Source: an uncultured Elusimicrobiales bacterium | GTDB taxonomy: Bacteria > Elusimicrobiota > Elusimicrobia > Elusimicrobiales > Elusimicrobiaceae | Reading direction: 5' to 3' | Assembly (NCBI GenBank): GCA_944325225.1 | Contig: CALUZQ010000007.1 | Span: 1 to 61,108, forward strand | Length of the DNA: 61,108 nt | Part shown: piece after piece, positions 60,235 through 61,092 of the stretch | Layout: each line of letters opens with the position of its first letter | Numbering within the stretch: the first letter of the stretch is position 1 | Program-made: the position numbers and the translations under genes | The notes under the pieces: model-generated | Seen by the model: only the letters and a program-made list of their open reading frames with translations | Database searches by the model: none | Told to the model about the DNA's origin: nothing

Positions 60235-60253
60235 AACCGCCCTTTCGGGCGGT
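60235..60253 (-). terminator. Terminator after the tRNA(CAU) gene
   Basis: ACCGCCC / GGGCGGT stem with TTTC loop; a T run follows on the minus strand. Confidence 0.85.
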
Positions 60254-60266
60254 AAAAATAAAAATC

Positions 60267-60340
60267 TTGCGGGGACTGGATTTGAACCAGTGATCTCAAG
60301 GTTATGGGCCTTGCGAGATACCAGGCTTCTCTACCCCGCA
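60267..60340 (-). tRNA. Initiator-type tRNA-Met (anticodon CAT)
   Basis: A 74-nt cloverleaf: acceptor TGCGGGG/CCCCGCA, D stem GAGA/TCTC with A11:U24, a 9-nt D loop AGCCTGGTA equal to that of E. coli initiator tRNA, anticodon arm CAAGG-CCCATAA-CCTTG, T arm ACTGG-TTCAAAT-CCAGT. A11:U24 marks it as initiator rather than elongator Met or Ile2. Position 33 is C, the 1:72 pair is U:A and the anticodon stem has AGG:CCU instead of GGG:CCC. CCA is not encoded. Confidence 0.92.
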
Positions 60341-60345
60341 ATGTT

Positions 60346-60351
60346 ATTATA
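60346..60351 (-). promoter_or_regulatory. -10 box of the initiator-type tRNA
   Basis: TATAAT on the minus strand, only 5 nt before tRNA position 1. Confidence 0.5.
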
Positions 60352-60472
60352 GCACTTTGCAACCCCAAATGCAAACCTAGAATTGCCTTTGCAACAAAAT
60401 ACTGCCTTGTAAAAAATGAGATAAATCAAAAATAAAACACTTAAATATCCCGTATCCGGCCCGAAAAACAAT

Positions 60473-60536: not shown

Positions 60537-61058
60537 CTATTTTGTTACAAAATCAAATGTCTTACAAACAGATGCGCATTTTGGATCCGTTCCGCTGCAT
60601 TTAATGACACCCGGCTGATCCGAATGATCAAAATAAATTGTAAAGGCACAGGAAATTGATCTGGATCCACAAGTAGTGCCAACACCTCCATAAATATTCA
60701 ATTCACCAGGCACATTTCCGCCGCTGCCTGTTAAGCTATCAAAGCAGGTTCCATTGCTATAAATTTCTCTTCCACCCACAGTGCCTGATAAAATATCCCC
60801 TTTTGGAACTGCCACATCTAACTTACTTATATCATCGGTATAAGTTCCATTAGCCAAATAATACACCTCCTGTGCGTCCTTGATACTTTTGAGGATAGGC
60901 CATAAACTGCTCATGCGGCTCTTCATCACTGCTTTTTCATATTGCGGGATCGCCACTGCTGCCAAAATACCGATGATTAAAACGACCACTAATAACTCTA
61001 TTAGCGTAAATCCGGCGTTTTTTTCGCCGGAGAATGTTTTTTGATAAGTTTTGTTCAT
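60537..61058 (-). CDS. Type IV pilin-like protein (second copy)
   Basis: A 173-residue prepilin starting at ATG 61058. Leader MNKTYQKTFSGEKNAG precedes FTLIELLVVVLIIGILAAVA, with E5 present. Then YEKAVMKSRMSSLWPILKSIKDAQEVYYLANG and a different C-terminal domain with several cysteines (TCFDS, TTCGSRSISC, IKCSG, KCASVCK), likely two disulfides. No Shine-Dalgarno site. Shares its 5' end almost exactly with the pilin at 32370-32909. It may be a major or minor pilin. Confidence 0.92.
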   Translation of the reverse strand: MNKTYQKTFSGEKNAGFTLIELLVVVLIIGILAAVAIPQYEKAVMKSRMSSLWPILKSIKDAQEVYYLANGTYTDDISKLDVAVPKGDILSGTVGGREIYSNGTCFDSLTGSGGNVPGELNIYGGVGTTCGSRSISCAFTIYFDHSDQPGVIKCSGTDPKCASVCKTFDFVTK

Positions 61059-61092
61059 ACGCAAAATTTATCAAAAAAAAAAAACGAGTCAA
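60952..61092 (-). repeat. Pilin 5' cassette, copy 2
   Basis: Direct repeat of 32803-32939 in the same orientation, 28 kb apart. Confidence 0.85.
61065..61092 (-). promoter_or_regulatory. Putative pilin promoter with 12-nt T tract
   Basis: On the minus strand TTGACT (61092-61087), CG, T12, GA, TAAATT (61070-61065) and 6 nt to ATG. The spacer is 16 bp, near the optimum. Confidence 0.4.

Follow-up and report, generated by a model that had tools for sequence, protein, structure and literature searches.

The initiator tRNA locus

The window (i.e., the whole 61,108-nucleotide stretch of contig CALUZQ010000007.1 that was analysed, from an uncultured Elusimicrobiales bacterium) contains, close to its end, a 74-nt tRNA gene that is read from 60340 to 60267 on the minus strand as TGCGGGGTAGAGAAGCCTGGTATCTCGCAAGGCCCATAACCTTGAGATCACTGGTTCAAATCCAGTCCCCGCAA. 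The original prediction gives plus-strand coordinates for it, although the gene is on the minus strand. The features of the locus are presented in Table 1.

Table 1. Features of the initiator tRNA locus in the window.
Feature	Position	Strand	Basis
Initiator tRNA-Met(CAU)	60267..60340	-	ARAGORN, Rfam RF00005, position table
Sigma-70-like promoter, TTTGCA-18 nt-TATAAT, TG before -10	60346..60375	-	Consensus scan, 10/12
Intrinsic terminator hairpin ACCGCCCGAAAGGGCGGT, then T run	60236..60253	-	Predicted from sequence
Gene for type IV pilin-like protein	60537..61064	-	

ARAGORN calls the gene as tRNA-Met(CAT), and it scores 60.6 bits (E 1.2e-10) against Rfam RF00005. It covers positions 1-73, and the CCA is not encoded. 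In the position table, the acceptor end presents U1:A72, G2:C71, C3:G70, G4:C69 and A73 (GCGGGG/CCCCGC), the D stem is initiator-type, with A11:U24, and the T loop has TTC at 54-56. The anticodon stem is composed of A29:U41, G30:C40 and G31:C39 (i.e., AGG:CCU at 29-31:39-41), and the anticodon loop has C32, C33 and A38 with the CAU anticodon. The proposed initiator identity is borne out by A11:U24, the anticodon, the ARAGORN call and a D loop with the same letters as that of E. coli, and the three departures from the bacterial norm that had been noticed, namely C33, U1:A72 and AGG:CCU, are each confirmed. As for 1:72, the U:A pair is indeed present, but what had been described as a lost mismatch is a weak pair, which varies between U:A and C:A in close relatives.

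Nearly all of the congeners sampled share the TATAAT-like element of the promoter-like site that immediately precedes the tRNA, and a hairpin similar to the GC-rich one downstream is likewise found in nearly all of them. Across 22 of these congeners, the tRNA itself retains 93-100% identity, and its 60-nt flanks are mostly 30-65% identical. Judging from these sequences, the gene is a real, single-gene transcription unit.

The pilin-like gene lies directly upstream of the tRNA. Its product presents an N-methylation motif and resembles the ComP DNA-uptake pilin family weakly, with a match that stays below the cut-off.

Initiator content of the genome

The genome to which the window belongs has 1.63 Mb and is 93% complete. 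All of its 44 tRNAs above the Rfam cut-off were inspected, and 43 of them have U33, the C33 initiator being the sole exception. Three of the 44 have a CAT anticodon: the C33 initiator and two with an elongator-type D stem, which look by sequence like tRNA-Ile2 and elongator tRNA-Met. A second initiator (i.e., another U24-type CAT tRNA) was not found among the 44 tRNAs of this 93% complete genome. The one-contig genome G094, from the same family, presents one C33 initiator and zero U33 initiators by pattern search. The only initiator candidate of the window's genome is accompanied by genes encoding the methionyl-tRNA formyltransferase (Fmt) and IF2, and this gene encodes the initiator tRNA of the cell, apparently the only one.

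Distribution within the phylum

In a survey of 341 genomes of the phylum, probably Elusimicrobiota judging from the genome set and the large genus of reduced genomes in it, for initiator-type tRNA patterns with either base at position 33, the C33 pattern matches 142 genomes and the U33 pattern matches 127. In the window's order, C33 is present in 130 of 149 genomes and U33 in none, again by pattern search, which is the conservation in the lineage that the original prediction had set as a check. Counted by hand, the rest of the class presents the reverse distribution, with C33 in 0/86 genomes and U33 in 55/86. Other classes contain C33 as well: it occurs in four genomes of family f19, to which G240 is added, and in eight genomes of f28/f29. 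G240 was the one extra C33 genome retrieved by a loose initiator search of 65 genomes matching neither pattern, whose other matches are chance-like and could hide a U33 initiator. A tRNA identical to that of the window is found in 18 of the 41 genomes of a first search for relatives, its own genome included.

The three departures had been read as a single package, a reading that does not hold, given each varies independently among relatives. A29:U41 is present in nearly every initiator of the phylum, U33 and C33 alike (the exceptions being f3, f5 and a few extra copies), and members with C33 and members with U33 each include U1:A72 and C1:A72 forms; the sister family of the window's family has both. 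The comparison therefore points to C33, AGG:CCU and U1:A72 as independent oddities. A coupling of C33 to A29:U41 alone was also considered and rejected: all C33 matches in the phylum have A29, which is, however, the background state of the phylum. Among initiators sampled from the phylum to which a Dojkabacteria genome belongs, A29 occurs in 5/8 C33 initiators and in 22/43 U33 initiators (hand count), and the C33 initiators of Leuconostoc and Weissella mostly have G29.

Other variation was observed among these genes. Initiators of the window's family mostly lack an encoded CCA and have an A13:U22 D-stem pair, whereas those of the sister family encode CCA and have C13:G22 (L045-L082). Partial initiator copies occur in addition to an intact gene in G029 (contig C30; L070, L083, L086) and G032 (L084, L085). 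They are 5' halves that break off near position 31-32 and a 3' half that begins with the anticodon loop. All of them continue into unrelated DNA, a pattern that would fit an element inserting at the anticodon loop of the initiator gene. In G332, whose ordinary C33 initiator sits on contig C37, two extra initiator-type tRNAs lie about 1 kb apart (G332:C36:1689-2803), one with C33 and one with U33 and a divergent stem, possibly on a mobile element.

Number of origins

In a tree of IF2 from 29 genomes, the C33 genomes fall into three separate clades (the order, f19, and f28 with f29), which corresponds to at least three changes, either all gains or partly losses given the poorly resolved deep backbone of the tree. 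Constraining the C33 genomes to one clade costs 62 units of log-likelihood, with a p-AU of 0.001. These values point to three or more independent origins of C33 in the phylum.

C33 initiators outside the phylum

The GTDB genome collection was scanned for C33 initiators in which position 28 is not A. C33 initiators were found on at least 117 stretches, across about a dozen or more phyla. The matches listed include the Lactobacillaceae genera Weissella, Leuconostoc, Convivina, Fructobacillus and Fructilactobacillus, as well as Erysipelotrichaceae, Phycisphaerae, many Patescibacteria-type groups, Omnitrophota and Victivallales. All 96 distinct C33 initiators that were readable in full have A11:U24 and G2:C71, and their common 1:72 types are not G:C; C32 and A38 are almost always kept. 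Among the Lactobacillaceae genomes sampled, C33 is present in about 19 of those listed (hand count), and in the Dojkabacteria-phylum sample mentioned above, 8 of 51 do.

Whole-genome checks of 20 C33 genomes outside the phylum found only C33 copies in 18. C33 is the only initiator matched in the single-contig genomes CP070678 (Phycisphaerales), CP129470 and CP129477 (both Dojkabacteria), and in cultured Leuconostoc, Weissella, Convivina and Periweissella. The remaining two genomes, from Agathobaculum sp. and Fructilactobacillus lindneri, have both forms. In F. lindneri (G346:C19:70659-71306), the U33 and C33 initiator genes lie about 600 bp apart, as a natural side-by-side pair.

C33 forms were also found on at least 120 stretches of IMG/VR viral contigs. 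C33 was not seen in the four named phage initiators inspected, all of which keep U33.

Initiation machinery

The original prediction suggested formylation and P-site selection may work differently in this lineage, and the genes analysed do not support this. Fmt is above its curated cut-off in all 30 genomes tested, and the copy in the window's genome can be aligned with E. coli MTF from end to end, the GRG loop segment included. IF2 is above cut-off in 29 of the 30, and the uS9 tail is intact, with SKR or TKR at its end whether the lineage has C33 or U33. The 16S gene is absent from the assembly of the window's own genome; in the members of the order that could be read, A790, G926, G1338, A1339 and C1400 are canonical. 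A compensating ribosome change is thereby ruled out at the sites read, given the uS9 tail and 16S positions 790, 926, 1338, 1339 and 1400 are normal.

One 16S difference was observed in three members of the order (L484, L485 and L493, from G094, G124 and G035, respectively), whose h31 loop, GACGCUACGCG, has U968 beside G966/C967. All other relatives read have A968, as do the other C33 lineages read, hence U968 is not required for C33. Since the initiation machinery is ordinary-looking, C33 is regarded as a recurrent tolerated variant and not as a sign that translation starts in a new way.

Interpretation

The anticodon loop owes its sharp turn to U33, and this turn matters most for A-site decoding. 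The loop of the free initiator departs from the standard fold in any case (PMC4611024). Initiators enter the P site directly, with neither EF-Tu delivery nor A-site decoding, and hence position 33 is likely under weaker selection in the initiator than in any other tRNA. Such relaxed constraint would explain both the sole exception among the 44 tRNAs and the repeated gains. The gene thus probably encodes an ordinary formylated initiator, in which C33 is a tolerated, recurrent U-to-C substitution. The tRNA would be charged by MetRS and then formylated by the genome-encoded Fmt, weak 1:72 pairs being compatible with formylation in E. coli mutant work. It would then bind IF2 and enter the P site directly, where 16S A1339 and G1338, which contact pairs 30:40 and 29:41 via the minor groove (PMC11497404), would grip this tRNA in the same manner; an A:U in place of G:C at 29:41 should keep the 2'-OH contacted by G1338. 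Once arisen, C33 would have stayed fixed in some lineages.

Tolerance is not without points against it. U33 is listed as a determinant for MetRS charging of the E. coli initiator (PMC9976931), and the majority of bacteria retain U33, which indicates the position is not fully free. Moreover, no reversion is seen in the 130 C33 genomes of the order; such order-wide fixation exceeds what strict neutrality would lead one to expect, and could mean selection. Under an adaptive explanation, C33 would change anticodon-loop dynamics (a 37-unstacked/37-stacked switch), tuning start-codon selection or barring elongation at internal AUG codons. This fixation speaks for it, along with the parallel recurrence of C33 with C32 and A38 almost always retained, and the free bacterial initiator loop is known to adopt a non-standard fold involving A37 and pair 29:41 (PMC4611024). 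Yet no matching change was found in the lineage's Fmt, uS9 tail or 16S P-site bases examined, C33 occurs with both G29:C41 and A29:U41, and most bacteria do without it, so we consider this explanation unlikely. Selection might also have come from an anticodon-loop ribonuclease (e.g., an initiator-cutting VapC toxin), with C33 as an escape kept by recurrent toxin exposure. Initiator-cleaving VapC toxins are known, anticodon-loop changes in phage tRNAs have been proposed as evasion (PMC10264068), and the scatter of C33 initiators across phyla and on at least 120 IMG/VR stretches would fit; however, recognition of base 33 by such nucleases is not reported in the literature covered, and the four phage initiators keep U33, which makes escape quite unlikely. 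A more general form of these ideas, in which C33 is a selected functional switch that alters the anticodon-loop fold inspected by IF3 and the 30S head (or protects against nucleases), so that C33 lineages differ from their U33 relatives in start-codon stringency or toxin resistance, is held to be rather unlikely.

The two remaining explanations would make the oddity disappear. Other systems are known in which tRNAs undergo C-to-U changes, and a deaminase restoring U33 in the RNA would render the mature tRNA conventional. Nothing in the data speaks for this directly, the enzyme would be needed separately in about a dozen or more phyla with independent C33, and eukaryotic initiators carry C33 (PMC9023262); editing is therefore very improbable. 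That the gene is a sequencing error, a pseudogene or a non-initiator tRNA has nothing in its favor beyond the oddity itself, and the chance of it is practically negligible: the identical tRNA in 18/41 genomes, C33 in 130 of the order, flanks that diverge while promoter and terminator are kept, and the lack of another initiator in the genome all contradict it.

Tolerated substitution is the preferred reading. The C33 lineages offer natural replicates that allow direct tests of position 33 in initiation: three origins fall within a single phylum and several among the lactic acid bacteria, with the F. lindneri pair in addition. Some of these are cultured strains.

Comparison with known systems

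The window tRNA shares with E. coli tRNA-fMet A11:U24, G2:C71, C3:G70, G4:C69, A73, the D-loop letters, the CAU anticodon, C32/A38, G30:C40 and G31:C39. It differs in having C33 for U33, U1:A72 for C1xA72, and A29:U41 for G29:C41. In terms of a strict E. coli-type definition (i.e., C1xA72, three G:C pairs at 29:41/30:40/31:39, and U33), none of the elements is present in full, whereas the sequence elements of a broad bacterial definition all are: CAU, purine 11:pyrimidine 24, a non-G:C 1:72, G2:C71, C3:G70, G4:C69 and A73.

Eukaryotic initiators use C33, and U33 is otherwise described as highly conserved (PMC9023262); the three G:C pairs are described as found in all initiators (PMC4611024). 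Whole bacterial lineages in this analysis depart both from the conservation of U33 outside eukaryotic initiators and from the universality of the three G:C pairs. No earlier account of a bacterial initiator with C33 was found in the open-access papers searched. What was known already are the C33 of eukaryotic initiators and the public genome sequences of cultured C33 species. The window tRNA is a known molecule in a recurrent variant that has become fixed in its lineage, not a new mechanism.

With eukaryotic cytosolic tRNAi-Met, the window tRNA has in common C33 in a CAU loop, a likeness that would be due to convergence rather than descent. The eukaryotic molecule, however, has A1:U72 and A54 where the window tRNA has U1:A72 and T54, and, unlike it, the window tRNA has A11:U24 and is found in a genome that encodes a formyltransferase.

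The window tRNA also resembles the initiators with C33 found in Leuconostoc, Weissella, Convivina, Fructobacillus, Phycisphaerae and many Patescibacteria, which likewise have A11:U24 and a non-G:C 1:72, and are in many genomes the only initiator matched. They differ from that of the window in usually having C1:A72; at 29:41, G:C predominates in the Leuconostoc/Weissella group and in Phycisphaerae, and A:U is found in others.
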